A stretch of 64,000 bases of DNA, taken from contig JASBTZ010000008.1 in NCBI GenBank assembly GCA_030148165.1, positions 186,001 through 250,000 of the forward strand, in the 5' to 3' direction. Position 1 is the stretch's first letter; every line of letters starts with the position of its first letter. Under the pieces are notes generated by a model. It was not told the origin of the DNA and made no database searches. It saw only the letters and a list, made by a program, of their open reading frames with translations. This DNA is from Bacteroidota bacterium. GTDB taxonomy: Bacteria; Bacteroidota; Bacteroidia; Flavobacteriales_D; Crocinitomicaceae. The position numbers and the translations under genes are program-made. Shown one piece after another: positions 10,941-44,046 of the stretch.

Positions 10941-11294
10941 ATATGAATAGTGTTAGTATGGTTTAAATTCTAAGCCCCTGCTGAATTCGTCTTCAATATC
11001 GAGTGATAAAATGAACTGATAGGAATAGCTAAGTGAGTAATAATAATTAATTATTTTATTCAATAATTCAATTGATATTACTTTTTGAAAAAATTACGTA
11101 TTTACACGTAGAGCTTCTAAGTATTTACACGTATAAGAATGCTAACATTTTGTTAATCAGTCTTTTTTGGCATGATTTTGAAGGGTGATTTTACATAGTT
11201 TACAAAGTATTTATTGTATTGTTTTCATACCTTCATAATAAATTCTAATTGTCTTAGATAAAAAGAAAGCAAACTCAGTTATTTTGATAATCAA
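10941..11294. promoter_or_regulatory. Divergent intergenic region with 13-base direct repeat
   Basis: This region separates the start of the metzincin gene (minus) from the WG-like gene (plus), so it must hold both promoters. It is very AT-rich. GTATTTACACGTA occurs at 11098-11110 and again at 11121-11133, a 23-base repeat distance, close to two helical turns. The first copy is preceded by TAC, so TACGT appears at both ends of that unit. This looks like a tandem operator for a dimeric regulator. No clear TAnnTTTG promoter box was found, and the regulator is unknown. Confidence 0.45.
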
Positions 11295-12578
11295 ATGTTG
11301 AAGAGAAGATTCCTAGGAAAGAAAGTAATATTTAAACTTATTGTAGTGATGAGTTTAATCATATTCCATACGAATTTGTTTTCTCAAACAATTTTAAGGG
11401 AAGAGGGGGGATTCAAATTGTTGGGATTAAATAATGAAGTCGTTCTCGATCCAATTTATGACAGCATTTTCAACCTGAGTAAAATTAAAGAAACGGAGAT
11501 TAGATCAAAATTCTTTGTTTTTAAGAAGGCCGACAAATTTGGATATGCGATTTTAACAGATTCTTTAAATGAAAAAAAATGGGTAGTATCGGATGCAAAG
11601 TATGACAGTGTATTTTGGGAAGAAGAAGTTGGAGCCAGTAACAGAATTCTTGAAGATAGGTATAAGTACCGAAGCCTTATAAAACTCAAATCAAACGATT
11701 TGACCGGGTTTATAATACTTAATTGGAATTATGGAAAGGACCATATTGATGGTCATATCAAAGGAACTGGCATTAAATCTGTCGAGTTGTTGGAGCCAAA
11801 ATACGATGATGTCCTTATAGATAATATTCCAGTATTAATTCTTAACGGTAAAGTTGGATTGTACTTTTCGGATTCCAAAATAATAGAACCTCGATATGAC
11901 TCGATAAAGGCAGTGCAAATGCCAGGTAGCCGATATTATGTGTGGATTAAAGATAAATGTGGAATTGCAACAATAAACCAGCTTTCATTGCCTGTTCAAT
12001 ATAATAAATCGGATCTTGAAATTGAGGATAACCGGGTTATTATAAGAACCATTGGACAAGCATTTGAAATATTTAGATTCAGTGATTCAACTTATATATC
12101 TATCCTCTATAATGAGAGTAAATTGATTAATAGTGATTCAATTTTTATTAGCCCTTCCATAATAGAAATTGATGGGATTGAATACTTGAAAGTTGAAGTT
12201 TTTCCTACGAATTTGAAATCAAGGTTAGGATCAGATTATTGGATTCCATCAAAAATATTATTGGCTGACCCGAAATCAGGAGAGGTTAGACACGCTTTTG
12301 ACGAGCATGATCATTATTACATTTGGTCCTGTCAATACATTATATCCGTCGAACCCAAATCAAGTAGCAAGAAGAAAGTCCGACTTGAGATCACAAATCC
12401 GATCACTTCAAATTCGATTGCAAAATTCAAAGCTTGGTTAAACGAACCTGATTCATTTGTATCGATGATTGATATGGGGGAATATTGCCAAGTTAGCGTC
12501 ATGCAACAAAACGGTTCGATGAAAACTATGGGTTACTTATATTATAAAGATGATGAGTTTACTACAACCAGAAAATAA
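11295..12578 (+). CDS. Secreted WG-repeat-like protein
   Basis: The 427-residue protein begins with a basic stretch and a hydrophobic segment ending near FHTNLFSQ, a typical Bacteroidota signal peptide. The mature part contains units of the WG/KWG type: an aspartate-proline-rich turn with IYDSI or KYDDV, followed about 20-40 residues later by a K-x-GY/GL/GI strand. Examples are VLDPIYDSI...KFGYAIL, LLEPKYDDV...KVGLYF and IIEPRYDSI...KCGIA. The usual Trp of WG repeats is often replaced. The C-terminal half does not show clear repeats. Such proteins are usually extracytoplasmic and of unknown role. It is divergent from the giant-protein operon and has no co-directional neighbour close by. Confidence 0.65.
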   Translation: MLKRRFLGKKVIFKLIVVMSLIIFHTNLFSQTILREEGGFKLLGLNNEVVLDPIYDSIFNLSKIKETEIRSKFFVFKKADKFGYAILTDSLNEKKWVVSDAKYDSVFWEEEVGASNRILEDRYKYRSLIKLKSNDLTGFIILNWNYGKDHIDGHIKGTGIKSVELLEPKYDDVLIDNIPVLILNGKVGLYFSDSKIIEPRYDSIKAVQMPGSRYYVWIKDKCGIATINQLSLPVQYNKSDLEIEDNRVIIRTIGQAFEIFRFSDSTYISILYNESKLINSDSIFISPSIIEIDGIEYLKVEVFPTNLKSRLGSDYWIPSKILLADPKSGEVRHAFDEHDHYYIWSCQYIISVEPKSSSKKKVRLEITNPITSNSIAKFKAWLNEPDSFVSMIDMGEYCQVSVMQQNGSMKTMGYLYYKDDEFTTTRK

Positions 12579-12877
12579 CTAGTTAATATTGGGTTATTAT
12601 AAGTTCTATGCCGTATAGTAAGTACAATAGAATTAGTAATTGCATATAAGAAATTAGCCGGGATCTCCTTTAAGCAGGTTCGAGATAAAATTAAACACAA
12701 CATTATGAGATAAAATAATTAATTGAAATCTGATTATCACAGTCAATGTGCATTTACTTTGATGACTTAAGACACCTTATATATTTCACTAAAATCGACC
12801 TAGATAAATTAATGGAACCGGATATTGCATTAAATTGTCAGTTCATACCTTTTTAAACTAAATTTTTGCCCACTACC

Positions 12878-13561
12878 CTAGTTAAATACTATTTCTTGAT
12901 CAGATGATATTTTTGCAATCCCGCTGTGCAATGCATATATGAGAATATTAATACTGCTACTCGATCCAATTTTTTTAGAAATATTATAGCGATGATTTTC
13001 TACAGTACGTATACTAATATTAAGTTTTTTTGAAATTTCTGATCTACTTTCACCTTTACAAACCAATTTAAGAATAGCCAATTCTCTATCCGTAAATTTA
13101 ACTGCTGTAGAAGGGCAAGTTTGAATCTCTTTTGCTTCTAACATTGAATAAATTAATTCTCTTGGAAAATCCTCAGTAAAATAAAACCCTTGTTTCCAAA
13201 CTGCATGTATCGCGTCAATTAAATCGTCAATATCACACCCTTTTGAAAGAAAGCAATTCGTACCTTCAATAAACATATTCCGGATTAATTGAAGGTCATT
13301 GTGCATACTTAATACAATAATCTTTATTTGTGGGTATTTTTCTTTTATGAGTTTTAACGCATCCTGACCTGACATTATTGGCATATCGAGATCAAGAATT
13401 ATTACATCTATTGGGTGTCTTTTTAGTTCAAATAACAATTCATTGCCATTTGCTGCATTAAAAACAACATTAAGTCCTTCTTCATATATCAGGGAATCAG
13501 ATAGTGTTTTTCTAAAAATGGTATGATCATCGGCAATAGCAATCCTTAGGTTGTTTGGCAT
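12878..13561 (-). CDS. NarL/FixJ-family response regulator
   Basis: An N-terminal receiver domain carries the acidic pair in IADDH, the phospho-acceptor Asp in VIILDLDMPIMSG and the conserved Lys in FLSKGCD. It is followed by a LuxR-type helix-turn-helix (FTDRELAILKLVCKGESRSEISKKLNISIRTVENHR). A start at 13561 (MPNNLRIAIADDH) fits the family better than the upstream in-frame ATG at 13585, which would add eight residues. It should be a phosphorylation-controlled DNA-binding regulator. No partner kinase is adjacent. Overlapping palindromes lie 86-114 bases upstream, in the space shared with the divergent gene at 13722, and suggest autoregulation. Confidence 0.9.
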   Translation of the reverse strand: MPNNLRIAIADDHTIFRKTLSDSLIYEEGLNVVFNAANGNELLFELKRHPIDVIILDLDMPIMSGQDALKLIKEKYPQIKIIVLSMHNDLQLIRNMFIEGTNCFLSKGCDIDDLIDAIHAVWKQGFYFTEDFPRELIYSMLEAKEIQTCPSTAVKFTDRELAILKLVCKGESRSEISKKLNISIRTVENHRYNISKKIGSSSSINILIYALHSGIAKISSDQEIVFN

Positions 13562-14581: not shown

Positions 14582-15199
14582 ATGAACATTAATAAAAACA
14601 CTGATTTCAGAAGGGGGTGTATACTTGCACTTGATAATGCGAAAAAGCACCTAGCTGCTGCAAATGCTATTAAAAGCATCTCTTTTGGAATGGCTAATTC
14701 TCATCTAATTCTAGCAGGAGAAGAGGCAATTAAGGCAGATTTACTTGATAGAACTGCAGTTAATCCACAGTGGTTAGATGAGGGCATTGATGAATTCTTT
14801 AGAAATCATATTCATAAACATAAAGAGAGTTTAAAAACCCAGTTTATGGGTTTATTTATTGAGGAGGTATTTGAAAGAATCATATCTACTTCAGAAATCC
14901 TTAATCGCTCTAAATTAACTAAAGAAAAAAAAGCAAGATTAGTTGACAAATGGACAAACAAAACTTCTAAATATTTAAGTGAAATCGAGTCTTCAGTCGA
15001 CAAAAAATTGGAGCCAAATAAGACATGGTGGAATAATGCTAATAACAGTAAAAATTTAGGGTTTTACGTAGGAATAGTTAAAGATAAGGGTAACTGGATA
15101 GGACCATTTGATATTACTCAGGAACAATTCGAAAAAAGCCTTCAAGTTGTATCTCATTTCATTAATGACATTGAATTCCTCATAGAAACTGATAATTAA
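14582..15199 (+). CDS. AbiV-like abortive infection family protein
   Basis: The 205 residues match the general look of the AbiV family. An N-terminal helical segment (GCILALDNAKKHLAAANAIK...GMANSHLILAGEEAIKADLL) has the LAxEEaxKA-type helix. It is followed by an HKHKESLKTQFM stretch like the F-x-NHK-x-K region that follows in family members. AbiV proteins are associated with phage-resistance loci; the lactococcal prototype stops phage propagation by interfering with translation. The protein has no signal peptide and should be cytoplasmic. It is last in a possible three-gene plus-strand unit beginning at 13722. The family call is by pattern memory and needs a profile search. Confidence 0.6.
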   Translation: MNINKNTDFRRGCILALDNAKKHLAAANAIKSISFGMANSHLILAGEEAIKADLLDRTAVNPQWLDEGIDEFFRNHIHKHKESLKTQFMGLFIEEVFERIISTSEILNRSKLTKEKKARLVDKWTNKTSKYLSEIESSVDKKLEPNKTWWNNANNSKNLGFYVGIVKDKGNWIGPFDITQEQFEKSLQVVSHFINDIEFLIETDN

Positions 15200-16608: not shown

Positions 16609-17466
16609 ATGTCAATAATTATAAGAACCATAATAATACTGTTAGTGTGTCTGAGTTATACCAGCTCATATTCCCAGGAATCAAATGATACGAGTTATCT
16701 ATCTCTTCTTCCTTCTATCGTAGTTAAATGTGACTATAATAAGGAGCTTGGGTGGATTCAAGTGGCTTCTATAGAAGCTGAACTGCAAGTAAGCAACTGC
16801 CCGATTGACTCTATACACGTGATAGCGTTTGACACCACTAATAGTATTTCAGATACGATTTTCAATTTATTCAGTAATCAAGTTCAGATAAATCCAGATA
16901 AAAATGCTTGTTGGTTCCCAGGTTTATTAAAAGCAGAAATATCTATTTATCAAAATGGAAGCATTGTTTCATTGGACACCTTTAATATTCAGGTTTCACT
17001 ACTAGAATATTCAAAGAAGTGCGCATGTGGTTCCGGTAAAGATGGAACGAGCAATTCAGGAATTGTTGGATTTGGCAAAGCATCACTTGAGTATGATAAA
17101 AATCGAAAAAACGCTGAGAAGATAGGACTTAACAAAAAAAGGTACTCATCGGAATTCATTGAATACAACTACGACAATGGAAAAATTGTAAAAGTCGACA
17201 AATTGAACAGAACCAAAGGCAAATTTTATATTGATGAAACTCATTTATCAACTCGATTTAGTAGGAACAATAACTTTCCAGAAGCCAAGTATAATGTTAT
17301 AAAAAATGAAGGTAGTATCACAGTGCTCTCTGCAGAATGTCGTCGTGAAGATGGAGACCTAATGATTTGGAAAATAGTGATTCAGGGAAAGCGAATGGAC
17401 ATCACAGCATCTTGGTACCGAGACGGAGAGATAAGAACTACCTATTTAGTCATGTCAAAAAATTAA
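16609..17466 (+). CDS. Secreted hypothetical protein (285 aa)
   Basis: The N-terminus MSIIIRTIIILLVCLSYTSSYSQES is a signal peptide with cleavage probably after SYS. The mature protein begins with a beta-rich region (residues ~30-140) with two Cys residues. A glycine-rich turn, KCACGSGKDGTSNSG, follows, and then a polar beta-rich domain (~170-285). No sorting domain is present, so it is probably periplasmic. I do not recognise a family. No close neighbour suggests a role. Confidence 0.6.
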   Translation: MSIIIRTIIILLVCLSYTSSYSQESNDTSYLSLLPSIVVKCDYNKELGWIQVASIEAELQVSNCPIDSIHVIAFDTTNSISDTIFNLFSNQVQINPDKNACWFPGLLKAEISIYQNGSIVSLDTFNIQVSLLEYSKKCACGSGKDGTSNSGIVGFGKASLEYDKNRKNAEKIGLNKKRYSSEFIEYNYDNGKIVKVDKLNRTKGKFYIDETHLSTRFSRNNNFPEAKYNVIKNEGSITVLSAECRREDGDLMIWKIVIQGKRMDITASWYRDGEIRTTYLVMSKN

Positions 17467-17978
17467 TGTACTGATTAATTGATTTTCAGTCATCCATATC
17501 TCTGTCCAATAGTTCTTTCAAAGTATCTCGTATATTTAGCACTAACAGCCAATACACAATAGCCTTAATATAGAAATAGTTCAAATCGATTTTCAATGAA
17601 ACAAAACAAAGAAAGGATAGTAGTGGTAAGTAGCAGGGCTCAGTCTGGGCCTACAAATTAAATATTCCAACTGTAATTTGAGAAGTGATCAATTGTATTA
17701 ATGAAATAATAATCGCTTCAATTTTTGAAGATGAAACACGAGGTATATAATTCAAGACCCTACACATTGACAATATACTTGCATCCGGCCAATCACGATA
17801 CCCCAATTTTTGAGCTCCCAGGACAAACTCACTTTTTCCCGAATTCGTCAATTACATTCCCCTTATACATTTATAAAATGGTAGAATCAAATTGAACCCC
17901 TATGGACTTTTCTAAAGTGCTGTAAATTAGGTGAATTCACCTATTGACACGGACATTTATACTTCATAATTTCGGAGC
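17467..17978. other. 512-base gap; holds the regulator's upstream region
   Basis: No convincing gene was seen. The right end contains a perfect 16-base palindrome (17928-17943), listed separately, 35 bases before the LuxR-type gene. A 66-codon minus-strand frame (17651-17851) has no recognisable features and was not accepted. Confidence 0.5.
17928..17943. promoter_or_regulatory. Perfect 7-2-7 palindrome TAGGTGA-AT-TCACCTA
   Basis: TAGGTGAATTCACCTA is a perfect 16-base inverted repeat that ends 35 bases before the ATG of the LuxR-type regulator. The 7-2-7 layout is that of NarL/FixJ-class operators. The half-site TAGGTGA occurs twice more as direct repeats before the lanthipeptide operon (18640 and 18663). 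Autoregulation is likely. Confidence 0.55.
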
Positions 17979-18611
17979 ATGAAGATTTCATTGGCTAATA
18001 TTGGAGTATTTCATGATTATGAAATTATTCGAACAGGATTTTATTCATTTTTTATGAAGTATCAGGATAAATTTAATTTGTGCGCGGTTAGTGACACCTC
18101 TTTTTTGATTGAATTGGAATTAGAAAATCTAGATTTAATAATAGTACCATCTGCATTTTTTAAAGAAAAAAAATATAATCATCAACTGAAACGTGCTTTG
18201 GATATGAATGTACACATAATTGTATTGGGTGAATACTCAGATTCTGGAAGTATCAATTTTTTTCTAAGCTCCGGAGCTAAATGCTATCTTAAAGAGAATG
18301 AAAAATTGGATGTGATATATAGATCGATAAAAATTGTTTGTCAGGGAAGTTTATATTGTCCTTATGACATATCATTCAACACTTATAACCAAAAGTCACT
18401 AAAACCTACTTTCACAGAACGCGAATTAGAAGTGTTCAATTTGTTGAGACAAGAATTCACAAATCTACAAGTTGCCGAGAAGTTAGGTGTTCATCCTAAA
18501 ACTATTGAGTATCACAGAAAAAATATTATCGAAAAATGTGATGCAAAAAAACTATTAGGTGCATTGGATTACCTGATTACTCAAGGACACGTGCCTATTT
18601 CCAATCAGTGA
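17979..18611 (+). CDS. Atypical LuxR/NarL-family regulator of the lanthipeptide locus
   Basis: The 210-residue protein has a receiver-like N-terminal domain and a LuxR helix-turn-helix at the C-terminus (FTERELEVFNLLRQEF...VAEKLGVHPKTIEYHRKNIIEK). The receiver is degenerate. The acidic pair is reduced to FHDYE, and the strand that should carry the phospho-Asp reads LDLIIVPSAFF, with Pro57 where Asp is expected. Control by phosphorylation is therefore unlikely; ligand binding or expression level may matter instead. It lies 113 bases before the operon that encodes the five-domain set, LanA, LanC and LanB, with the shared TAGGTGA half-sites on both sides. It is the likely pathway-specific regulator. 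Confidence 0.8.
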   Translation: MKISLANIGVFHDYEIIRTGFYSFFMKYQDKFNLCAVSDTSFLIELELENLDLIIVPSAFFKEKKYNHQLKRALDMNVHIIVLGEYSDSGSINFFLSSGAKCYLKENEKLDVIYRSIKIVCQGSLYCPYDISFNTYNQKSLKPTFTERELEVFNLLRQEFTNLQVAEKLGVHPKTIEYHRKNIIEKCDAKKLLGALDYLITQGHVPISNQ

Positions 18612-18639
18612 TCAAAATATTGCACATTAGGGTTTGTCC

Positions 18640-18669
18640 TAGGTGATTTAGAATATTTTATATAGGTGA
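18640..18669. promoter_or_regulatory. Direct repeats of TAGGTGA before the lanthipeptide operon
   Basis: TAGGTGA occurs at 18640-18646 and 18663-18669, 23 bases apart. The second copy continues as GTGACTATCAC, a partial inverted repeat. They lie 55-84 bases before the first operon gene and match the half-site of the palindrome upstream of the regulator. They are candidate activator sites. Confidence 0.5.
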
Positions 18670-18723
18670 CTATCACATTTAAACTAATACATTGCTCCAT
18701 ATTACTCTCATTAATTAATTTAT

Positions 18724-19212
18724 ATGATGTTAAAATATACAAGCAATGGCCTTTCTTATTTAGATGAAGTTGGTAACAACAAGGTATTCACGAGCAACTC
18801 TCTAACATACGTTTTTAAACCTGAAATTGGGCAGCGAGTAAAATATACTGCTAATACAACTTCAACAAAGTTGAGTACGGCGAATACTAATATGGATGGT
18901 ACTGGAACTACTTATTCACTAATCACGGGAGCGACGACATACGGAACTTTAATTAAAACAATCACCATTAAAGGTGAGCAATCACTTAGTAGAGGCATGG
19001 TAAGGTTTTTTCTTAAAACAGAAAGCACTTATTCGATTGTAAATGAAATAGAAATTCCAGCAATACAAGAAACACAAGATCAATCGACTTTTGCGTTGTC
19101 TTTAAAAGTTGGATTTAGACTAGAGGCATCCTGGGAATTGGTTGCTACTACTCAAATTGGTAATAATATAATAGTTACAGTAGAAGGGTTAGATATTTCC
19201 TACCCTGCATAA
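18724..19212 (+). CDS. Single-domain member of the five-copy beta family
   Basis: The 162-residue protein has about 35 N-terminal residues of its own (TSNGLSYLDEVGNNKVFTSN). One copy of the ~130-residue domain seen in the next two genes follows: YTANTTSTKLSTANTNMDGTGT, then TLIKTITIKG, SRGMVRFFLK, EIEIPAI and a closing VEGLDISYPA. The domain pattern (ANTG.VxISTANSNLDGTGT...GTxIKxIxIKA...GMxRxFxxD) predicts an all-beta fold. No signal peptide is present. It is the first gene of the lanthipeptide operon. The function is unknown. Similar repeat sequences are, from memory, seen in phage-like structural proteins, but I cannot confirm that here. Confidence 0.7.
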   Translation: MMLKYTSNGLSYLDEVGNNKVFTSNSLTYVFKPEIGQRVKYTANTTSTKLSTANTNMDGTGTTYSLITGATTYGTLIKTITIKGEQSLSRGMVRFFLKTESTYSIVNEIEIPAIQETQDQSTFALSLKVGFRLEASWELVATTQIGNNIIVTVEGLDISYPA

Positions 19213-19231
19213 TTACAAAAAATAAATAAAT

Positions 19232-20050
19232 ATGGCAGCAGAAACTCATTACAGCGCGAATACGGGATTAGTAAAAATAAGTACCGCAAATTCTAATCTT
19301 GATGGAACTGGAACTCTTGGTAACGTAATTACTGGGGGTGACAATGGTACATTAATAAAGCGAGTAATAATCAAAGCAACAGATACTGGTTCAACCAGCA
19401 CGACAGAAGGAATGGTCAGATTATTTGTGTACGATGGTTCTAATACAAGATTGTTGACAGAAGTTGAAATACCAGCAATGGGGCAAAGTGCGACGAACCC
19501 TACATTTAGAAAAACAATTTTACTCGATTTTAAATTGGAAGCTAACTTTATTTTAAAAGCCTCAACGGAAAATGCAGAAACCTTTGTTGTTATAGCTGAA
19601 GGCCTAGATTTTAGCTATTACACATCTAGTGTGAGACCTGAAAGCACAAACTACACTGCTAATACAGGAGTTCAAGGTATTACATCTCAAAACTCAAATT
19701 TGGACGGATCAGGAACAGTTGCAACATTAGTTACTGCTACTTCATCTGGTTTTGATGGTTTAGCAATTTCAAGTATTACATTAAAAGCATATACCGCAGT
19801 GACAAGGGGAATGGTGCGATTGTTCGTACAAAATACAAGTACCGGAGCGGCTAATACATTCTTATTCAAAGAAATTCCTATAGTTCCTGTTGATCCAACA
19901 GGAACATTTGAATCATTTGAAATGAAGATAGAATTTCCTGATACTTTTCAAATTCAATCTGGTTACAAAATAGTTGCCAGCATTGAAACTGCAGCAGACC
20001 AATTCATCAATGGAATAGTAGATGCAATGGATTGGAAGTATCCAGCTTAA
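19232..20050 (+). CDS. Two-domain member of the five-copy beta family
   Basis: The 272 residues divide into two tandem copies of the domain, about residues 1-135 and 136-272. Each starts near Y(S/T)ANTG and carries SNLDGTGT or SNLDGSGT, a GMVRLFV strand, and a closing (A/D)xxDxxY motif (EGLDFSYY and DAMDWKYPA). There is no signal peptide, membrane segment or Cys cluster. It starts 19 bases after the single-domain gene and 11 bases before the next paralogue, so all three are co-transcribed with the precursor peptide. The duplication within and between genes indicates amplification of one module. The role is unknown: scaffold, binding partner or immunity are all possible. Confidence 0.75.
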   Translation: MAAETHYSANTGLVKISTANSNLDGTGTLGNVITGGDNGTLIKRVIIKATDTGSTSTTEGMVRLFVYDGSNTRLLTEVEIPAMGQSATNPTFRKTILLDFKLEANFILKASTENAETFVVIAEGLDFSYYTSSVRPESTNYTANTGVQGITSQNSNLDGSGTVATLVTATSSGFDGLAISSITLKAYTAVTRGMVRLFVQNTSTGAANTFLFKEIPIVPVDPTGTFESFEMKIEFPDTFQIQSGYKIVASIETAADQFINGIVDAMDWKYPA

Positions 20051-20061
20051 AAAAGGCAAAT

Positions 20062-20859
20062 ATGGCAGAAGAAACAAAATTTAAAGCCAGAACAGGCTTA
20101 GTCACAATCTCGACAGCAAACAGTAATTTGGACGGTACGGGAACCATGGGTACGCTGTTAACCGCAGGTAGCAATGGAACATATATTAAATCCATAATTA
20201 TTAAGGCACAAGAGGCTGTCTCAAAAGGAATGATCCGTTTATTCATCGATGATGGAAATGACCCTAAATTGTTTATGGAGGTTCCTGTTGAAAGATATGC
20301 GCAGGCTGGCTCAACAAAAACGTTCGAAAGGCATATTATATTAAATATGAAGTTACAGTCAGGATATATACTAAAAGTATCTACTGAAAACTCCAATATA
20401 TTCAATGTAATCGCCGAATCAAATGATTGGAGTTATAACACTACCGCTGTAAATAGCGATATGACTGAAAAAACATCATCTGTTGGAGCGAGCGGTGTAA
20501 GCACAGCAAATTCAAACTTAGATGGTACCGGGACATTGGCAACAATAATTTCGGCTGGTGCACCCGCCTCTTATAGCGGTTTGAGTATAAGCAACATCAC
20601 AATAAAGGCAACCTCGGGCACATCTACAGGCATGATACGGTTTTTTATCGAAGATGGAGCCAGTAACAAATATTTGTTTACTGAAGTATTAGTGCCTGAT
20701 ACAGACCGATCATCTGGATTGGATGAAAGTTACGAAAGAATTATAACTCTAATGGATGATCTAGATTTGCAAGCCGGTTATTCATTGATGGCATCAACTC
20801 AAATTGGTGATAATTTTGAGATTTCAGCAGATGGATTTGATTGGACTTATGCTCGTTAA
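20062..20859 (+). CDS. Second two-domain member of the five-copy beta family
   Basis: I chose the ATG at 20062 (MAEETKFKARTGLVTISTAN), because the upstream in-frame ATG at 20032 would overlap the preceding gene and add a non-family N-terminus. From 20062 the start aligns with MAAETHYSANTGLVKISTAN of the previous gene. The 265 residues form two domain copies with SNLDGTGT in each, GMIRLFIDDG and GMIRFFIEDG, and closings ESNDWSY and DGFDWTYAR. It ends 31 bases before the lanthipeptide precursor. As with its paralogues, no export signal is visible. Its closeness to the precursor suggests a role in maturation, sequestration or self-protection, which is inference. Confidence 0.75.
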   Translation: MAEETKFKARTGLVTISTANSNLDGTGTMGTLLTAGSNGTYIKSIIIKAQEAVSKGMIRLFIDDGNDPKLFMEVPVERYAQAGSTKTFERHIILNMKLQSGYILKVSTENSNIFNVIAESNDWSYNTTAVNSDMTEKTSSVGASGVSTANSNLDGTGTLATIISAGAPASYSGLSISNITIKATSGTSTGMIRFFIEDGASNKYLFTEVLVPDTDRSSGLDESYERIITLMDDLDLQAGYSLMASTQIGDNFEISADGFDWTYAR

Positions 20860-20890
20860 AATCGGATTAAATGAAAATAAATAATAGAAT

Positions 20891-21121
20891 ATGAAGACAA
20901 ATAAAATAAAAGTTGATCTTTCTTTGAACAAAAGAAATGTAGTTGATTTAGAAAATGATGAAATAGCCGGAATGGCAGGGTTCACAACCATGGGTTCATT
21001 ACGTTCACTCTTTAATACTGCTAATTGCGGTGTTACACCATTCCAAAGTGCATGCGCGGTTAAAGTTTCCAGAAATGTTGACGGGGATAATGACGCTGAA
21101 CAAAATTTGGGTTGTGACTAA
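20891..21121 (+). CDS. Class I lanthipeptide precursor (LanA-like)
   Basis: The 76-residue peptide opens with a Bacteroidota class I leader: KIKVDLSLNKRNVVDLENDE, like the L-x-LNK-x-x-V/I-x-x-L consensus. It ends in an AGMAG stretch (residues 26-30) where a leader peptidase could cut. The presumed core (31-76) has Cys46, Cys55 and Cys75, with Thr32, Thr33, Ser36, Ser39, Thr43, Thr49, Ser53 and Ser60 as dehydration sites. Up to three (methyl)lanthionine rings are therefore possible. The core ends in an unusual acidic, Ser/Thr-free tail (NVDGDNDAEQNLGCD). Its stop codon shares a base with the LanC start, which couples translation. Dehydration by the LanB and cyclisation by the LanC encoded just downstream are expected. 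Confidence 0.85.
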   Translation: MKTNKIKVDLSLNKRNVVDLENDEIAGMAGFTTMGSLRSLFNTANCGVTPFQSACAVKVSRNVDGDNDAEQNLGCD

Positions 21122-22317
21122 TGAATCTGATGGCTAAAGAAAATCAAGGGTCAAAAGAAATTGACTACAATCACTTACTTTCTGAGATTTCTAGCGTTTT
21201 GAGAAATGATAAAAGTCCTGGGCTTGGTCCAGGACTTTTATCAGGTAAGACGGGAATTGCTTTATTCCTGTTAAATTATTCAAATTTTAGCAAAGAATCG
21301 AGTAAGGATGTAGCCAGAGCAACCCAGTATATTACGGAAGTTTTCGATTCAATTAAAAAAGGATATAATTACCCCACTTTTTGCGATGGGATTAGTGGTT
21401 ATTTATGGTTTCTTGATTATCTGGCCAAAAAAGAGTTCTTAGATCAGGAAGACGTGTCCATAACAAACGAGCTCGAAACTTTGGTTGCTAATCAAATGAC
21501 TGAATCCTTAAAAGAAGGAAATATAGACTTTTTACACGGTCCCTTAGGTTTATCGGTATTTCATATAGCAAAATCAAATTCAAAGAATAAAATTCAAATT
21601 TTATCAGAATTTATTAATATTCTTGAATCCATCGCAAGGCCTGACACCAACGATTCACTAAAGTGGCTTGTCCCAATTGACGAAAAAGGAGGAACTGGCA
21701 TCAGTAATGGAATAGCACATGGTGCACCTGCAATTATTCTTGCTTTATCTAAATGCTCTGAAATTCCTGAATTGAGACAAAAATCTCTTTCCCTTTTAGA
21801 AAAAGCGGTTAGGAACTTTTATATTATCAAAAACAATCATAGAAACGAACAGAGATGGTTTCCCAATTTATTATATGAAACCGGAGAAATTGTCGAAGGA
21901 AATAGGTTGGCATGGTGTTATGGAGACCTATCGATTGCTTATTCTCTACTCGTTGCATCTGAACGTCTTCAAGACAATAAGCTAAAGGAACTATCACTTG
22001 AACTTCTAACAGAACTGAGTCATTTAAAAAGTCGTAAAGATAATACAATAGGAATTTGTCATGGATTTACCGGAATTTCATATTTGTTTTACAAGGCTTA
22101 CTCCCTAAGTAAAAAAGAAGAATTTAAATTGGCATCCGAATTTTGGATTAATCAAAATTTAATACATATTTCTCAAGAATTAGCCCGATTTAAATCAGGT
22201 GACAATTTAGATCTAAGCAAGACGAACCTAATTAACGGTTTTGCCGGGATTGGTTTAGTGATTCTGACTTTTATGCACCCTGAGATTTCTGACTGGGACG
22301 AGTGTCTCCTACTATAA
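21121..22317 (+). CDS. lanC: Lanthionine synthetase C-like cyclase
   Basis: The 398-residue protein shows the seven helical repeats of LanC, each with a short Gly-rich motif: GLLSGKTGIALFL, FCDGISGYLWFL, FLHGPLGLSVF, GIAHGAPAIILAL, WCYGDLSIAYSLL, GICHGFTGISYLF and NGFAGIGLVIL. The zinc ligands are Cys266 in WCYGD, Cys313 in ICHG and His314. The enzyme adds Cys thiols to dehydrated Ser/Thr in the precursor to make thioether rings in the cytoplasm. The ATG shares a base with the LanA stop. A second ATG at 21130 is an alternative start. LanB follows after 7 bases. The length and motifs look complete. Confidence 0.92.
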   Translation: MNLMAKENQGSKEIDYNHLLSEISSVLRNDKSPGLGPGLLSGKTGIALFLLNYSNFSKESSKDVARATQYITEVFDSIKKGYNYPTFCDGISGYLWFLDYLAKKEFLDQEDVSITNELETLVANQMTESLKEGNIDFLHGPLGLSVFHIAKSNSKNKIQILSEFINILESIARPDTNDSLKWLVPIDEKGGTGISNGIAHGAPAIILALSKCSEIPELRQKSLSLLEKAVRNFYIIKNNHRNEQRWFPNLLYETGEIVEGNRLAWCYGDLSIAYSLLVASERLQDNKLKELSLELLTELSHLKSRKDNTIGICHGFTGISYLFYKAYSLSKKEEFKLASEFWINQNLIHISQELARFKSGDNLDLSKTNLINGFAGIGLVILTFMHPEISDWDECLLL

Positions 22318-22324
22318 ATTTAAT

Positions 22325-25300
22325 ATGTTAGGATCTTTGGATTTAAATAGCCATCACTTCAATGATAAGCTAGTAATCAGACTACCGAAAAAATCAAGTG
22401 ACAATATTAATATTGACGAAAATCAATTACTTTCTTTCTATTCAGCCGATGATAATTTAGAAGCACTTTATCTAGCTTCTCCCAGTCTATATTATTCGCT
22501 CAAATCATTTTTATCTGGTAAAAACCATGATTCAAAAAAGACTGACAAACTGTTCCTATCATTATACAAGTATTACGTTAGGATGCAAACGAGGTGCACT
22601 CCTTTCGGACAATTTTCGGGATGTGGAGTCATAAACTGGGGCGACGTATCGTCATTAGATAAGATATTATGGAAAAAAAGAACTTGGCTAGATATTGAAG
22701 TTTTAAACCAAATCGCACATATTATTGAAAAATCCTTTGAAGGAAGAAAATTAAATTTTTACCCTAATACCACCAAGTATAAATTAAAGGAAGAAATCAG
22801 ATATATTGAAACATCCATTTTAGATGATAACACTCGAAAATATAATTTGGCAAGTGTGAAATCAAATGACTTCCTGGACTCGATACTTGACAAATGCAGT
22901 CATGGTCTATCCTATGCAGACTTGTTAGACGTTATTTGTGAATATGGTATATCTAGTGAAAAAGCCGAGCGATACATCGGGGAATTAATCAATATGCAAT
23001 TAATAATAAGTGAAGTCCGCCCTAACGTGATTGGCGAAGATTATACTAGCGTATTGATTAAGTCTCTACAAGAAAATTCAGTTAATTCAGAAAAATTGCA
23101 TGAATTATTTAGTTTGACTAGTCGAATCCTAAACTCAATAAATGCATTGGATGATAATCACACCAACGATATAGGTAGCTATATTTCTATAAAAGAAGAA
23201 CTAGAATCAAAATTAAAGATCAAAAAAAAGCACATTTTTAAAACGGACCTAATTCTCCAAAAGAATAGCGGAAGTATAGAGAAAAATATTCAAGAGAAAA
23301 TTGTAAACGCCATCGAATTTCTCAATTCAATTACGGAAAATGAAGTTGAAAAAAGACTAGATGATTTTAAGAATAAATTTGTCGAAAGATTTGAAGAAAA
23401 GGAAATACCGCTTGCGGTTGCGCTCGATTCTGAATTTGGCATTAGATATGGATTGTCAGGAGGAAAAAAAAACCCTTTACTAGATGAAATTTCATTTCCA
23501 ACAAATCAATCCAAGCAGGACTCCATTCAATTTGATAAGTATGCCAAATTTATCGTACAGAAAATTCATGAATCGATAGTATCCGGTGATAAATATGTAA
23601 CCTTAGATGAACTAAAAACGGAGAGAAAAAACCTCCTTTCGGATACGGTTTACGCTTTGTTCACCCTACTGCCGAACAATGAGGTTTTTATTAAACATGC
23701 TGGCGCAGGAACAATTTTAATTAGTCGATTTTCTCACAGTTCAGAAGAAATTAACGACCTCACGCAAGAAGTAGCCACAAATGAGAAAAGATTAAACAGT
23801 AATTCAATTATTGCTGATATTGGACACTTGCCTGGTAATAGAGCAGGTAATATCGTTTCAAGAAAATCAAGTACTGATTTTGAAATTCCCTATTTAACAA
23901 ATTCGCTCTTTTCGCCTGAAAAGCGCATTCATGTGGAGGATATAGGCTTGAAAATTAGAGATAATCGAATTATTCTAACCAATCGAAATGACAATAATGA
24001 AATTATTCCCAAACTAAATGCTGCTCATGAATACAGATATAGTGAATTACCAGTATATTCCTTTTTGTGTGATTTGCAATACCAAGGTGGAAATGAAATT
24101 GTTGTATACAATTGGAATATTTTCCATGAAGTCTTTAAATATGTTCCTCGAATCTACTATAAAGGAGTCATCATGTCTCCAGCAAGTTGGAAAATTGGAA
24201 TTAATGAATTAGAGGGCTACTTGAATAAAAAATCACAGGAATATAATTTTAAAAGTTGGAGGGAACAAAATCATATTTCTAGGTATATAACAATCAGTGA
24301 AGGCGATAACGAAATGCTAATAGATCTTGAAAACAAATTCAGTCAAGCATTATTTATAAATGAATTAAAAAGGAGAAAAGGCCTGATTATTTGCGAATCA
24401 CTACGTCATTCAGAAAATATTGAAGTAGCGAATAAAAACAATTTCGGGCCCAATGAAATAATTAGTTTCCTACAGCTATCAACATCGAACTCGAAGTTGA
24501 CTTTGGAAAACAAATTAGACACTATATATCCTAAAAGAGACTTTATTCCGGGAACCGAATGGGTTTATTTTAAAATAAGAGCAAACTTTGATTATATAGA
24601 CAATTTATTAATAAATACTGTACAAAATTTAGTCTCTGAATTAACTAATTTGAAGTTAATAAAAAAATGGTTTTTTATTAGATATGATCAGGGTGGTAGT
24701 CATTTAAGAATTCGATTTGAGCTCACCAAGCGAACTCATTTATATACTGTAGTGCAAACTGTTCGAAACTATTACGAAAGTGATTTAAATCTTGGAATGA
24801 TATCAAACATTTCAATAGATACGTATTCAAGAGAATTGGAAAGATACGGCATTCATTTAATTGAATTTGCTGAAGAGTTTTTCCATGTTGATAGTGAATC
24901 TATTACGAGGCTGCTAATTCGAATCAATGCTAATCAAGAGGTAAATCTTAGATGGAAAATTGCAATTAAATGCATAGCCGACTTATTGCATTCCTTTAAT
25001 TATAACAGGAAATCTTGTGAATCAATACTCAAGAAGTTATCTGACTCATTTTTCAGAGAACATAATGGTAATAAAGAACTAAAACTTCAAATAGACAGAA
25101 AATATAGGAAGCTTAAGCCGCATTTGCAGGACGCCATTAATAATAACCACTGGCCAACTGTTGACGAAAAGATTATGGAGATCTTGTCTTGGCGAAAAGA
25201 AAAACTAAAGGCCATATATGATAAATTGATTCTTGAAGTAAATGAATATCCAGAAATTCAATTAGATGATATTGTTGTAAGTTATATTCATATGACCATA

Positions 25301-25417
25301 AATAGGTTGTTAATTAGCAAGCAAAGGCGCAGCGAATTAATGATTTATTATTTCATGGCAAAGTTTTATCGCGAAGAAAATGCGAGAATCAAATACAGTA
25401 AAACAAATAATGCTTGA
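22325..25417 (+). CDS. lanB: Full-length class I lantibiotic dehydratase
   Basis: The 1030 residues cover both parts of a LanB. The N-terminal glutamylation domain includes the signature YYVRMQTRCTPFGQFSGCGV (around residues 84-103) and later HLPGNRAGNIVSR. The C-terminal elimination (SpaB-C/thiopeptide-type) domain starts near EWVYFKIRANFDYIDNLL and includes KWFFIRYDQGGSHLRIRFEL. The enzyme uses glutamyl-tRNA to activate Ser/Thr of the precursor and then eliminates glutamate to give dehydroamino acids. Both domains in one chain are typical of true class I lanthipeptide clusters, unlike the split form in thiopeptide-like loci. Its end overlaps the following oxygenase gene. No missing segment is evident. 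Confidence 0.92.
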   Translation: MLGSLDLNSHHFNDKLVIRLPKKSSDNINIDENQLLSFYSADDNLEALYLASPSLYYSLKSFLSGKNHDSKKTDKLFLSLYKYYVRMQTRCTPFGQFSGCGVINWGDVSSLDKILWKKRTWLDIEVLNQIAHIIEKSFEGRKLNFYPNTTKYKLKEEIRYIETSILDDNTRKYNLASVKSNDFLDSILDKCSHGLSYADLLDVICEYGISSEKAERYIGELINMQLIISEVRPNVIGEDYTSVLIKSLQENSVNSEKLHELFSLTSRILNSINALDDNHTNDIGSYISIKEELESKLKIKKKHIFKTDLILQKNSGSIEKNIQEKIVNAIEFLNSITENEVEKRLDDFKNKFVERFEEKEIPLAVALDSEFGIRYGLSGGKKNPLLDEISFPTNQSKQDSIQFDKYAKFIVQKIHESIVSGDKYVTLDELKTERKNLLSDTVYALFTLLPNNEVFIKHAGAGTILISRFSHSSEEINDLTQEVATNEKRLNSNSIIADIGHLPGNRAGNIVSRKSSTDFEIPYLTNSLFSPEKRIHVEDIGLKIRDNRIILTNRNDNNEIIPKLNAAHEYRYSELPVYSFLCDLQYQGGNEIVVYNWNIFHEVFKYVPRIYYKGVIMSPASWKIGINELEGYLNKKSQEYNFKSWREQNHISRYITISEGDNEMLIDLENKFSQALFINELKRRKGLIICESLRHSENIEVANKNNFGPNEIISFLQLSTSNSKLTLENKLDTIYPKRDFIPGTEWVYFKIRANFDYIDNLLINTVQNLVSELTNLKLIKKWFFIRYDQGGSHLRIRFELTKRTHLYTVVQTVRNYYESDLNLGMISNISIDTYSRELERYGIHLIEFAEEFFHVDSESITRLLIRINANQEVNLRWKIAIKCIADLLHSFNYNRKSCESILKKLSDSFFREHNGNKELKLQIDRKYRKLKPHLQDAINNNHWPTVDEKIMEILSWRKEKLKAIYDKLILEVNEYPEIQLDDIVVSYIHMTINRLLISKQRRSELMIYYFMAKFYREENARIKYSKTNNA

Positions 25418-26603
25418 TATGCGAAAAGCTGGACACACAATTGATAAATTGATTTATCCTATAACTTCCAATGAATTCTTTAATGAGTATTGGGAGAAAA
25501 AAACTCTTTATATAAAAAGAGAAGAAAAGAATTACTGGAAAGATGTATTGACTCCAAAAGAAGTCGATGACGCTCTTTGTTCATTAAATTTAAGACTGGG
25601 TGAAGTTTCTTTGACGAGGGCAGCTGGAAACGTAGAATCAGATAAGTATACTATTAAAGAAAAACTTATAGATGTAGTTAAGTTATTTCAGTATTATCAT
25701 AAAGGTTATACGATAATAATGAATCACATGGATCTGCGTATAAGAGGTTTAGCTGAATTGACTTCATCTCTGGCTAAAGAATTTTCAATGCCTCTTCAAA
25801 CCAATTTGTATTTGACACCCCAAAATTCACAGGGATTTAATACTCACTATGACACTCACTGTGTATTTATTCTTCAAGTGTCGGGATCAAAAAAATGGAG
25901 AATTTATAAACGGAAAGTGGAATTCCCAACTGACGAATACGCCCCTGAACAAGGCGAGTATTCGGATCAAATGCCAGTGGAAGAATTTCAACTTGAACCA
26001 GGCGACATAGCGTATATTCCGAGAGGTATTCCACATGACGCCTTAACTGTTACCGGTGAAGATTCATTACATATTACTTTGGGGGTATTATCATACAACT
26101 GGTATGACTTAATGGGTTGTGTTCTAGAAATTTCTCAATTACGAAACTCAAACTTTCGAAAAGCTCTACCAATAGGATTTGCCTTCAATCAACCCATTGA
26201 TGAAATTAATATTTCATATCGTGAATTAGTCAACAGTCTGAGTAGCGAGGCGTTTTTAAAGGAAGCTATGACGATGATGTCTGAAAAATTTATAAAATCC
26301 CGCAGATCAATTATCCATGGGCAATTAGCAGACAAGCCCACCTACTATGATAATCTCATTCTCAATCAATATTCAATATTCAATTTCGTCTATGAAGAAG
26401 ATTTTATACGAATTAATGTGACAGAAAGAACGATTGTTTTCCCTATTTCTTTTTATGATCAGATAAAATTCGTCTTAAGTGGAAATGAATTCACAATTGA
26501 CGAAATTCCGGGAAATCATGATCTAATTATTCGAATTCAGATAATTGATAAGTTAATAGACTATGGTCTTTTAAGAAAGGTGCCACAAGTAACTCATATA
26601 TAA
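25410..26603 (+). CDS. JmjC/cupin-type 2-oxoglutarate Fe(II) oxygenase
   Basis: I chose the ATG at 25410, which overlaps the LanB stop by eight bases; the ATG at 25380 would overlap more. The protein shows the JmjC pattern used by ribosomal-protein hydroxylases: FFNEYWEKKTLYIKR at the start, then FNTHYDTHCVFILQVSGSKKW with the metal ligands H146 and D148, and EPGDIAYIPRGIPHDA with the distal H209. Enzymes of this type hydroxylate side chains of proteins or peptides using O2 and 2-oxoglutarate. Coupling to LanB implies a tailoring step on the lanthipeptide, perhaps on the Asp-rich tail (compare the Asp hydroxylase of cinnamycin, a different family). The C-terminal third looks like a winged-helix dimerisation region. 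Confidence 0.8.
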   Translation: MLDMRKAGHTIDKLIYPITSNEFFNEYWEKKTLYIKREEKNYWKDVLTPKEVDDALCSLNLRLGEVSLTRAAGNVESDKYTIKEKLIDVVKLFQYYHKGYTIIMNHMDLRIRGLAELTSSLAKEFSMPLQTNLYLTPQNSQGFNTHYDTHCVFILQVSGSKKWRIYKRKVEFPTDEYAPEQGEYSDQMPVEEFQLEPGDIAYIPRGIPHDALTVTGEDSLHITLGVLSYNWYDLMGCVLEISQLRNSNFRKALPIGFAFNQPIDEINISYRELVNSLSSEAFLKEAMTMMSEKFIKSRRSIIHGQLADKPTYYDNLILNQYSIFNFVYEEDFIRINVTERTIVFPISFYDQIKFVLSGNEFTIDEIPGNHDLIIRIQIIDKLIDYGLLRKVPQVTHI

Positions 26604-26615
26604 GCTGTATTAAAA

Positions 26616-27896
26616 ATGAAATATATTTTTTTAATAAACTGCATTTTTATCTCTTTAGTAGCTAATGCAGACGATACAATTGTAAGAAGCTGGAACGGTA
26701 TTTATCAAGAAATCGAGGCTGCAAATATCCGAGGTTGCCATTTTAAATTATCAGCTTTTGTTAAAGTTTCTGGTAATAGTTCGGAATCAAAAATGCACTT
26801 ATTCCTAATTGGAAAAAATGCACGTGGTTGGGTTAAGCAACAATTCAGCGAACAACTACAAGCTAGTATAAATCAAGATTGGACTCAAGTTGTTGTTTCA
26901 GGCCAAATAAAAAATAGGATTAGTAAATTGAGAATTGGTATCTTAATCGAAAACGCTGGTGTTTATAAGATCGACAGTATCAATCTTCAATTTATCAATA
27001 ATTCTGGCAATTGGAAGTCAATTGAAATTGAGAATGGGAACTTCAATCTTGAATTAGAAAATTCCCCCTGGATCTTATTCGATAATGTTCGAGGATTTGA
27101 TTTTTCCGTGAAGTCCGATAGCTCTCGAAGAGGTTATTCAGTTTTATTGATTGACGGCAGTGATCACTATTCATTCGGAAAAAACCCCGCTTCTGGAAAT
27201 TTTATTAAGGTTAATAATATCAAGTTATATTATGAATCATATGGTCAAGGCAAACCACTTGTTTTGCTTCATGGAAACTCTCAAAGCATAAGGAATTTTG
27301 AAAATCAGATCCCAGTATTTTCAGAATATTTTAACGTAATCGTTGTAGATACAAGAGGTCACGGAAATTCTGGAATCAATGACGATAAACTAACTTATGA
27401 ATTGTTTGCTTCAGATGTTGAAGGATTATTGCTGAATTTAAAATTGGATTCTATCTATTTACTGGGATGGAGTGACGGCGGTAATACTGGTCTCATAATG
27501 GCGATGAACAATAAAATTAATATAGAAAAATTAGTGCTAATGGGAGCCAACCTATACAATCGCAGGGGATCTGTAAAACCATTGATAAATGTATTCTTAA
27601 AGGTGAAGCGCAGTAAACTTCGCAAAGCAGGGCAAAATACAACGATAGAATATAGGTTGATAAACTTGCTATTAGAGGAGCCAAACTTAGAAGCTGAAAA
27701 TTTAAAATTAGTTAATGCGCAAACTCTGGTCTTAGCAGGGGCAAATGACGTAATAAAACGAAAACACACGAAATTAATAAACAAGCACTTGCCTAATTCA
27801 AAGATGATAATCCTTGAAAATTCAAATCATTTAGCACCAGAGAATAACTCAAGGCATTTCAACAAAATTGTTTTAGACTTTTTAACAGGGAGCTAA
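26616..27896 (+). CDS. Secreted alpha/beta hydrolase with N-terminal beta domain
   Basis: A signal peptide (MKYIFLINCIFISLVANADD) is followed by a ~170-residue beta-rich region that resembles a carbohydrate-binding or jelly-roll module. An alpha/beta hydrolase domain then starts near KLYYESYGQGKPLVLLHGNS. The oxyanion HG, the nucleophile Ser in LLGWSDGGNTG, the strand Asp in LAGANDVI and the catalytic His in ENSNHLAPE are all visible. It lies 12 bases after the oxygenase and is probably the last gene of the lanthipeptide operon. It acts outside the cytoplasm, so it might hydrolyse or transfer an acyl group on the exported product, or serve in self-protection. The role is inferred. Confidence 0.8.
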   Translation: MKYIFLINCIFISLVANADDTIVRSWNGIYQEIEAANIRGCHFKLSAFVKVSGNSSESKMHLFLIGKNARGWVKQQFSEQLQASINQDWTQVVVSGQIKNRISKLRIGILIENAGVYKIDSINLQFINNSGNWKSIEIENGNFNLELENSPWILFDNVRGFDFSVKSDSSRRGYSVLLIDGSDHYSFGKNPASGNFIKVNNIKLYYESYGQGKPLVLLHGNSQSIRNFENQIPVFSEYFNVIVVDTRGHGNSGINDDKLTYELFASDVEGLLLNLKLDSIYLLGWSDGGNTGLIMAMNNKINIEKLVLMGANLYNRRGSVKPLINVFLKVKRSKLRKAGQNTTIEYRLINLLLEEPNLEAENLKLVNAQTLVLAGANDVIKRKHTKLINKHLPNSKMIILENSNHLAPENNSRHFNKIVLDFLTGS

Positions 27897-42804: not shown

Positions 42805-44036
42805 GAAGAATAACGTTTGTATTAATACTAATTGGATCAAGTTGTGTTGGCAGTCTTCATGCACAACCTCTCGATTCGATATTAATGTTGGTTGTAGAAA
42901 ATAACGCCGAACTAAAAAGCTTGAAACTTGAGTTTGAAGCCGAATTAATGAAAGCAGACCAGGTGAGTCAGTTAGCGGATCCGCAAATTGGAGTTGGAGT
43001 GCCCGTTCTTCGACCGGAAACTCGTTTAGGTCCACAGATTATGATGGTATCAGCTAGTCAGATGTTTCCGTGGTTTGGAACTTTGAAGGCAAAGGGAGAC
43101 GTCGTTGTTAGTATGTCAAAGGTAAAATATGAGCGCATAGAAGCTGAACGATTAGTGCTTTTCAATAAGGTTAAAATTGCCTATTACAAAATTCAATATT
43201 TAAGTGAAAAGGAACTAATTCTTCAAGACGTCCTTGTGCAATTACATGCGATGAAAAATATTTCGCTTGCTAAAGTTGAGGCGGGCCAAGCATCTTCTGC
43301 TAATGTTCTTAGAGTTCAATTAAAGATTGACGAATTGAACAGTATGATTGAAAAGATAGAACAGGAAAAGCAGAAGGAATATGCTATTATAAATGAATTA
43401 ACAATACAACCTTGGACAACGGTTATTGTTCCAGACGGGGAATTTAATTTACCTGTTATTTCGTTTGATCTTGGTACATATCAGAATAAGATTCAAGCGG
43501 AATTTCCAATGATACGTATGCTTGATTTACAAAAAGAAGTGTCTCAGGAAAGACTAACGGTAAATCAAAAAATGGGTGCGCCAAAGATTGGAATAGGTTT
43601 GGATTATGCACTAGTTAACGAAAGAAGTGACATGGATCCATTGTATAACGGAAGAGATATACTGGTTCCTAAATTGATGTTGACAATTCCTATTTACAGA
43701 AAGGCATATAAAGCAAAGGAGCAGGAAGAACTTTTTGTTCAACAAGCTCTAGATTATTCTAAGGAACAACTCATAACGGAACTTCTATCCTTGCTTTTGC
43801 AATTTAAAGCAGATTATGATAATGCTGTAATCGATAATGAATTATCAATACAACAAATCGAGACATCAAATTTAGCATATAACATATTACTGGCTGATTA
43901 TAGTTCGGGAGGAAGGGGTTTTGATGATCTTCTTCAAGTTCAGATGGAACTGTTGAATTATCAATTAAAAGAAAAACAAAGCTTGTTATCTGCTAAGATA
44001 GCAGTTTCGAATATTGAGCGAATAACTGATTATTAA
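42795..44036 (+). CDS. cusC: TolC-family outer membrane efflux protein (CusC-like)
   Basis: The 413-residue protein has a signal peptide (MRRITFVLILIGSSCVGSLHAQ, with ATGs at 42795 and 42801) and the repeated long coiled helices of outer membrane factors, seen in two halves (KAKGDVVVSMSKVKYERIEAERLVLFN and ALDYSKEQLITELLSLLLQFKADY). It also has a LADPQIGVGVPV segment characteristic of the family. It forms the trimeric channel of the RND pump encoded upstream, whose end it overlaps by 10 bases. The CusB-like adaptor follows 10 bases downstream. Confidence 0.87.
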   Translation: MVMRRITFVLILIGSSCVGSLHAQPLDSILMLVVENNAELKSLKLEFEAELMKADQVSQLADPQIGVGVPVLRPETRLGPQIMMVSASQMFPWFGTLKAKGDVVVSMSKVKYERIEAERLVLFNKVKIAYYKIQYLSEKELILQDVLVQLHAMKNISLAKVEAGQASSANVLRVQLKIDELNSMIEKIEQEKQKEYAIINELTIQPWTTVIVPDGEFNLPVISFDLGTYQNKIQAEFPMIRMLDLQKEVSQERLTVNQKMGAPKIGIGLDYALVNERSDMDPLYNGRDILVPKLMLTIPIYRKAYKAKEQEELFVQQALDYSKEQLITELLSLLLQFKADYDNAVIDNELSIQQIETSNLAYNILLADYSSGGRGFDDLLQVQMELLNYQLKEKQSLLSAKIAVSNIERITDY

Positions 44037-44046
44037 AAATATAGTT

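Follow-up and report, generated by a model that had tools for sequence, protein, structure and literature searches.

Systems that produce ribosomally synthesized and post-translationally modified peptides (RiPPs) are defined by their modifying enzymes. In the class I lanthipeptides of Bacteroidetes, the precursors have LxLxKx5L leaders, many of which end in a double glycine (GG) and are accompanied by a C39 protease; the pinensins likewise represent class I chemistry in Bacteroidota, and their LanB dehydratase is split (both from the accessible part of PMC7268733). The grasp-with-spasm graspetides (TIGR04192/TIGR04193) are assigned to branch 5 in the available text of PMC8939145, and other graspetides depend on partner proteins, which are of other kinds than those described here (PMC13097080, available in part). 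We analyzed a stretch of 64,000 nucleotides (hereafter the window) from a Crocinitomicaceae genome (GCA_030148165.1, contig JASBTZ010000008.1, positions 186,001 to 250,000), in which a class I lanthipeptide locus at 17979–27896 is preceded by three beta proteins (beta1, beta2, and beta3). By sequence, these proteins are built from a module homologous to phage proteins, and they belong to a recurrent gene set that is associated with two RiPP chemistries and has switched between them.

The LanA, LanB, and LanC proteins form an ordinary Bacteroidota class I lanthipeptide set, which is itself nothing new in kind. The initial annotation of a class I lanthipeptide locus was borne out, because all of the genes that it named are present, together with both LanB domains, the LanC zinc ligands, and the LanA leader and core. 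The locus resembles the published LxLxKx5L systems in its zinc-ligand LanC, its LanB, and its LanA leader, which is an instance of the motif. It differs from them in that the leader reads GMAGF instead of GG, the genome has no C39 match, and the beta triplet and a JmjC oxygenase are added. Unlike the pinensin enzyme, the LanB of the window holds the glutamylation and elimination domains in one chain of 1030 amino acids (aa), and the beta triplet is unmentioned for the pinensins in the accessible part of PMC7268733. LanA has Cys46, Cys55, and Cys75, and eight Ser/Thr residues follow Gly30; the three Cys residues and up to eight dehydrations proposed earlier are correct if the leader ends near Gly30. 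No match to LanA was found in Pfam or NCBIfam. The placement of the locus in Bacteroidota by the initial annotation is supported indirectly, by the leader motif and by the Bacteroidota titles of the ten other loci with multi-module beta genes (see below).

The open reading frame (ORF) calls place eight tightly packed genes on the + strand at 18724–27896, which overlap slightly or are no more than 31 bases apart, in the order beta1-beta2-beta3-lanA-lanC-lanB-jmjC-alpha/beta hydrolase, with a LuxR/NarL-type regulator ahead (Table 1). Spacings of 19, 11, and 31 bases separate beta1 from beta2, beta2 from beta3, and beta3 from lanA, when the ATG at 20062 is taken as the start of beta3. This start (MAEET..., as in relatives) is most likely the true one, rather than the TTG. 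The sequence of the region reads as one operon. The arrangement is not due to chance because its order through jmjC recurs in locus L135 of a named Bacteroidia metagenome-assembled genome (MAG). The L135 proteins are 34% (LanB), 31% (LanC), 40% (JmjC), and 51% (modules) identical to those of the window.

Table 1. Genes of the lanthipeptide locus, in window coordinates
Feature	Position	Strand	Basis and remarks
LuxR/NarL-type regulator	17979..18611	+	GerE PF00196 helix-turn-helix, E=5.3e-11; alignment with four other regulators
beta1	18724..19212	+	N-terminal extension and one module (residues 35-158); 44% identical to beta2 residues 5-131
beta2	19232..20050	+	Two modules (1-127 and 135-268); two-domain model pLDDT 85.7, pTM 0.84
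beta3	20062..20859	+	Two modules; ORF extends to TTG 20032
LanA precursor	20891..21121	+	Translation, 76 aa; leader LSLNKRNVVDL; like ORFs in L135, L137, L133
LanC cyclase	21121..22317	+	PF05147 (LANC_like) E=7.3e-41; zinc motifs WCYG at 265, CHG at 313
LanB dehydratase	22325..25417	+	Lant_dehydr_N PF04738 E=6.4e-101; Lant_dehydr_C PF14028 E=1.7e-58; TIGR03891
JmjC Fe(II)/2-oxoglutarate oxygenase	25380..26603	+	PF08007 (JmjC_2) E=1.6e-27; start 25380, 25410, or 25419
alpha/beta hydrolase, apparently exported	26616..27896	+	PF00561 (Abhydrolase_1) E=1.1e-17 at 213-311; N-terminal extra region

The beta proteins had been listed as three companions of the lanthipeptide genes. The three are present as stated; however, they are not incidental, but a recurrent set related to a phage protein. 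They contain five copies (1+2+2) of a module of about 127 residues, which are 29–51% identical in pairs. Beta1–3 gave nothing above cut-off in Pfam and nothing in NCBIfam, and none of 55 modules scanned matches a Pfam or PHROGs family. Neither beta2 nor beta3 has a signal peptide discernible by eye. The claim that the combination of genes is unlike described loci is supported as far as we searched, and its key part is the beta triplet, which the initial annotation had not recognized as such. The combination of a lanthipeptide set with JmjC as seen here was not found in the accessible texts of the literature searched, in which subscription journals are mostly missing, and the same literature yielded no phage-tail-type proteins with lanthipeptide, RiPP precursor, or grasp-with-spasm systems. 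The accessible part of the graspetide survey (PMC8939145) does not mention "phage" or "jelly".

When 84,980 species genomes were scanned with the module alignment, 31 loci were obtained. Ten of them have two-module genes, and all ten are titled Bacteroidota: the 1+2+2 triplet is present in seven (L133–L139), a 1+2 pair in L140 and L143, and one two-module gene in L146. RiPP enzymes lie beside the modules in 9 of the 10 multi-module loci and in none of the 21 single-module loci (Fisher p=5e-7 for a grouping made after the loci had been seen; the counts exclude the window and a weak match, G250, and the 21 bacterial loci may include prophages). The G250 match (E=4.7e-5), which covers 51 positions of a frame of 759 aa, was set aside because it is probably due to chance. 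Together with the window, there are ten RiPP-associated loci in nine genomes, which we call cassette loci.

The enzymes beside the modules are of two kinds. LanB and LanC are found in L133, L135, and L137, where LanA-like ORFs accompany them. The conservation of LanA in relatives, which the initial annotation had left to be checked, was thus confirmed; L135 and L137 have the leader motif without deviation, and L133 has two ORFs, one with Ser in place of Lys and one with the exact motif. The GwsG and GwsS pair of the grasp-with-spasm systems is found in L134, L136, L138, L139, L140, and L143, with the same beta proteins in front. SPASM_w_grasp (TIGR04193) is above the NCBIfam cut-off in L134, L136, L138, L139, and L140; GRASP_w_spasm (TIGR04192) passes the cut-off in L134 and L136, and its matches in L138, L139, and L140 stay below; the graspetide enzymes of L143 were assigned by BLAST alone, and the ATP-grasp gene of L139 is split over two frames. 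The genome of the window differs from these in having no match to the TIGR04193 maturase. One MAG contains both a lanthipeptide version (L137) and a graspetide version (L138).

The module could be a prophage remnant or an unrelated block that merely lies beside RiPP genes, because outside Bacteroidota it occurs singly, in many cases in phages, and relatives of the window's genome lack the triplet. We regard this as very improbable. The 1+2+2 set precedes a short peptide gene in seven loci besides the window, with two chemistries; no phage genes were seen around the triplets by eye (the PHROGs test covered P0010–P0012 only), and L137 adjoins genes that look Obg- and adenylate-kinase-like. Hitch-hiking is thus largely contradicted by the recurrent arrangement.

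In the module tree, 33 single-module rows are separated from 48 Bacteroidota rows with a support of 99/100, and a C-terminal hydrophobic-x-Tyr end occurs in 39 of the 48 Bacteroidota modules but in none of the 33 others. The modules of the eight triplet loci fall into two groups, one of beta1 and the first modules (95/92) and one of the second modules (97/95). The position labels require 10 changes on the tree (minimum 7), compared with 45.2 in shuffles, none of 200 of which was as low; the alignment has 128 columns, the bootstrap had not settled, and the beta1 of L139 and the first module of the L136 beta2 were entered as fragments. Because the module labels cluster on the tree, the triplet was probably inherited as a set and not rebuilt from phages each time.

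On a tree of the concatenated modules of the eight loci, the distribution of lanthipeptide and graspetide enzymes needs three changes, at least two of which are forced by well-supported branches. Within one triplet clade, the precursors of L134, L135, L137, and L138, two for each chemistry, begin with MKKKEK[LI]K, and their codons differ. This motif was chosen after looking; no other start of this kind is found among 4,109 ATG frames of the cassette loci or among 16,994 frames of 39 background loci. In these four loci, the sequence of the precursor N terminus appears to follow the triplet and not the enzymes. Since the chemistry switches on the tree and the N terminus is shared across chemistries, it is the triplet that looks constant, with a chemistry that can be exchanged.

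The relatives of the module outside these cassettes are widespread in phages. Pseudanabaena phage Pam2 encodes one (Pam2_55; tblastn 3e-19) that is 32–46% identical to the five window modules and whose gene adjoins an annotated tail fibre gene. In the same phage, a gene at 12381–13178 of locus L012 carries a neurotoxin name in the record, which is very likely an automatic misannotation. In two Rhodobacter phages (RcKvothe gene 23 is an example of the phage single module), the module gene lies one gene behind a gene transfer agent (GTA) TIM-barrel-like protein and one gene before a holin, with an endolysin behind. In two scans of IMG/VR, 142 of 170 and 291 of 331 pattern-matching stretches were found to encode relatives. 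Among the best 80 of the 142 and the best 80 of the 291, 138 viral loci (some on a shared contig) each contain exactly one module in one gene, and within the stretch examined (up to 8 kb on each side) these viral loci gave no BLAST match to LanB, LanC, JmjC, C39-ABC, GwsG, or GwsS. In the window, by contrast, a RiPP operon contains five modules, which are spread over three genes. A search of viral contigs and plasmids with the window protein P0003 alone found nothing. One Pannonibacter genome has five single-module loci (L147, L148, L150, L151, and L154), which perhaps belong to several prophages.

The neighbors of the phage modules were surveyed in 27 loci (74 proteins, same-strand positions −1, +1, and +2 only), and 193 PHROGs families matched at least one of them. 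Twelve of the proteins match phrog_863 (tail fibre assembly), and 2–5 match each of several tail families; head families and families of unknown function are also among the matches, and some neighbors match nothing. The nameable neighbors are mostly tail genes. This context would agree with modules that have kept a tail-fibre-like binding function and that, once released, carry the peptide to a ligand on the surface of a competitor; the additional C-terminal domain of beta2 in L136, L137, and L139 (about 150 residues; in L137 and L139, Pfam gave it no family above the cut-off) could be read in the same way. We consider such targeting quite unlikely since no signal peptide or secretion route was seen for the beta proteins, no ligand is known, and the modules belong to no Pfam or PHROGs family. 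The kinship with widespread phage modules also permits a different connection, in which the RiPP acts upon phages or detects them, and the triplet, through its resemblance to the phage module, serves as a decoy or a sensor. A HEPN_AbiV gene (14582–15199; PF18728 E=1.3e-18) located 2.8 kb upstream of the regulator fits this idea; however, PADLOC matched neither its product nor the four locus proteins tested (P0001, P0003, P0008, and P0009), and the modules of Bacteroidota group together, separately from the single modules, and do not mimic any one phage. Such a role is improbable in our judgment.

A model of the single module is an all-beta jelly roll (pLDDT 88), and the named viral matches found by Foldseek include proteins of uncultured Caudovirales. 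VIA-align ranked a phage cement protein, which is a trimer, at the top (Z 9.7, and Z 10.8 when the second beta2 module was compared). Below it came nucleoplasmin-type cores, a virus turret protein, and then XepA (Z 8.1, 97 residues, root mean square deviation 2.6), which shares its rank with unrelated rows that have a comparable Z. The absence of a family from these lists was not counted as evidence. A sequence search of the PDB with the module gave one match, with E=0.49. Many of the structurally matched proteins form rings, and a carrier function is proposed, among other points, because the fold of the module resembles kinds that are often seen in ring-forming proteins.

We therefore favor an account in which the locus is a class I lanthipeptide operon whose beta triplet is an intracellular ring or carrier for the precursor or product, with a probability of about 40% for the account as a whole. 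Judging from family membership and intact motifs, LanB would dehydrate Ser/Thr residues of the core, LanC would add Cys to give up to three thioether rings, and JmjC would hydroxylate a side chain, most likely that of Arg or Lys. Beta1–3 would represent a domesticated phage-type module that was duplicated to five copies and became a constant companion of RiPP systems. They may oligomerize inside the cell into a ring or scaffold that binds the precursor or the modified product, possibly through the N-terminal leader of the precursor, and then hands it on. The downstream chemistry (LanB/LanC with or without JmjC, or ATP-grasp/SPASM) would be swapped while the triplet stays. The direction from phage to cell, the oligomeric assembly, the peptide binding, and the carrier role are the parts that we infer. 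A more specific version, in which the five modules make up a phage-derived cytosolic ring (perhaps a pseudo-pentamer) that recognizes the precursor N terminus regardless of the chemistry that follows and the lanthipeptide and graspetide enzymes are interchangeable cargo loaders, is doubtful as a whole. If the account is correct, a conserved protein set that outlasts enzyme swaps would be a second, chemistry-independent axis of RiPP organization, and a phage-type structural module would have been recruited into natural-product biosynthesis. The beta modules can also serve as a search handle; tools keyed to known families are expected to miss the modules because those scanned match none in Pfam or PHROGs.

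Several observations weigh against this account. The grouping behind the association is post hoc, the loci are not independent (L137 and L138 share a MAG, and L136 and L139 are close kin), and single-module loci often lie in phages, which seldom carry RiPP enzymes anyway. The sets of L140, L143, and L146 are shorter, their modules are not sorted by position, and L146 has no recognized RiPP enzymes; the LanB of L133 lies before the triplet and not behind it. The reading frame of the L136 beta2 is broken, and the L139 beta1 lacks a common start codon. The sharing of MKKKEK[LI]K could stem from recombination close to the end of beta3 and not from binding. Jelly rolls are very common, and most of the structural matches are near the unspecific level of the tool. 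The triplet was found in none of 298 other genomes of the order (299 with the window's own), and the modules were found in none of 37 background RiPP loci (0 of 27 with LanB and 0 of 10 with SPASM_w_grasp). Two of these loci overlap (L287 and L318), two end at contig ends within less than 13 kb, and G146, which has a known JmjC, was left out. The control is not purely composed of lanthipeptides because the LanC profile matches only 8 of the 27 LanB loci. Among 395 sampled genomes of the phylum, the window's genome and, weakly, one other contain the modules; in a sample of the same size, LanB occurs in 34 of 394 others, and 11 of 395 have TIGR04193 above the cut-off. The triplet is therefore an accessory that is rarely present.

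The route by which the peptide leaves the cell bears on a further explanation. No C39 peptidase was matched in the window's genome, and the same search matched 8 of 14 control genomes. Among the other cassette genomes, C39 is absent in five of eight and present in three, on other contigs; these absences may be gaps because most of the genomes are MAGs. A triplet acting like XepA or YomS could disturb the membrane so that an exporter-less peptide leaves the cell. Both are beta proteins of phage lytic cassettes that form pentamers, and XepA has two domains (PMC6834076, accessible in part). The missing C39 gene, the fold similarity to XepA, and the holin and endolysin near the module in the two Rhodobacter phages speak for such a release machinery. 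It is nevertheless unlikely, since the XepA match is not distinct from unrelated ones and the nameable phage neighbors are mostly tail genes. The likeness to XepA is one of fold, with no kinship seen in sequence. Moreover, C39 is absent from all ten cassette loci and also from 25 of the 37 background loci (home-made profile; Fisher p=0.046), so that the missing export is weak evidence and not special to the cassettes; a phage-like release deduced from the lack of an exporter, which had been considered as the main explanation, was therefore demoted. An intracellular oligomer is favored over XepA-like release, targeting, and a phage decoy or sensor.

The window's genome has a single LanB, and a homologue is present in two of the 59 other relatives of that genome (loci L009 and L010); when named genomes were scanned for close homologues of LanB, there was no match. 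L009 and L010 contain a LanA-like ORF, LanB, and LanC without beta modules. L009 has a C39 ABC transporter, whereas L010 has HlyD and a partial ABC gene at the edge, with no C39 in the stretch examined. In L009, a LanC-like protein (10743–11951), which adjoins a second LanC-like gene, appears to have lost its zinc ligands because WSYG and CRG replace WCYG and CHG. L009 also contains two LSLNK precursors and two exported proteins of about 370–390 aa that resemble each other.

The JmjC oxygenase, which the initial annotation had considered unusual, is present, and its iron triad is intact (H156-x-D158 in HYD at 156, and H219 in PRGIPH at 214). It is less odd than was thought, because JmjC tailoring of RiPPs has been published: in the accessible parts of the two reports, one describes BipG as a JmjC enzyme that hydroxylates ornithine during biphenomycin biosynthesis (PMC12707348), and the other places homologues of PF08007 in RiPP-like contexts (PMC12710340). 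The enzyme of the window differs from BipG in accompanying LanB and LanC. JmjC is found in two of four lanthipeptide loci among the beta-module cassettes and in none of the 27 background LanB loci. A homologue occurs in 13 of 294 other genomes of the class, and LanB lies beside JmjC in one of 14 JmjC regions scanned (L122), where the gene adjoins a split LanB and a C39 ABC transporter. In L123, it adjoins short precursors, which we take to be NHLP-like, and a pair of ABC genes of LanT-like type, one of which contains C39. In L126, L127, L129, and L130, the homologues lie amid genes that by eye are sulfotransferase-, asparagine-synthase-, and ABC-like, in kinds that vary by locus; this is perhaps another peptide-tailoring context.

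The alpha/beta hydrolase has a signal-like N terminus, as judged by eye. In the corresponding place near LanB and LanC, L133 (7280–9025) and L137 (15412–17202) have S41-family peptidases. The receiver of the regulator has Pro at the position of the phospho-acceptor Asp of the four aligned regulators. Response regulators are also found divergently just upstream of beta1 in L134 (8678–9319) and L143 (8829–9431), and with that of the window, a response regulator may be a recurring neighbor of the beta sets. A strict Bacteroidota promoter pattern had no match in 17401–18724, and the Rfam and tRNA scans of the window gave no matches. Two giant adjacent ORFs on the − strand (441–6521, 2026 aa, and 6558–10940, 1460 aa) have no Pfam match, and the second has no PADLOC match either; the sole PADLOC match among ten window proteins was PDC-M02A, for the DUF4365 protein at 35221–37299. 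Further downstream, at 39115–45822, there is a row of resistance-nodulation-division (RND) efflux genes of the heavy-metal type, which encode an AcrB family protein, an outer membrane efflux protein, and an HlyD/HMBD protein.

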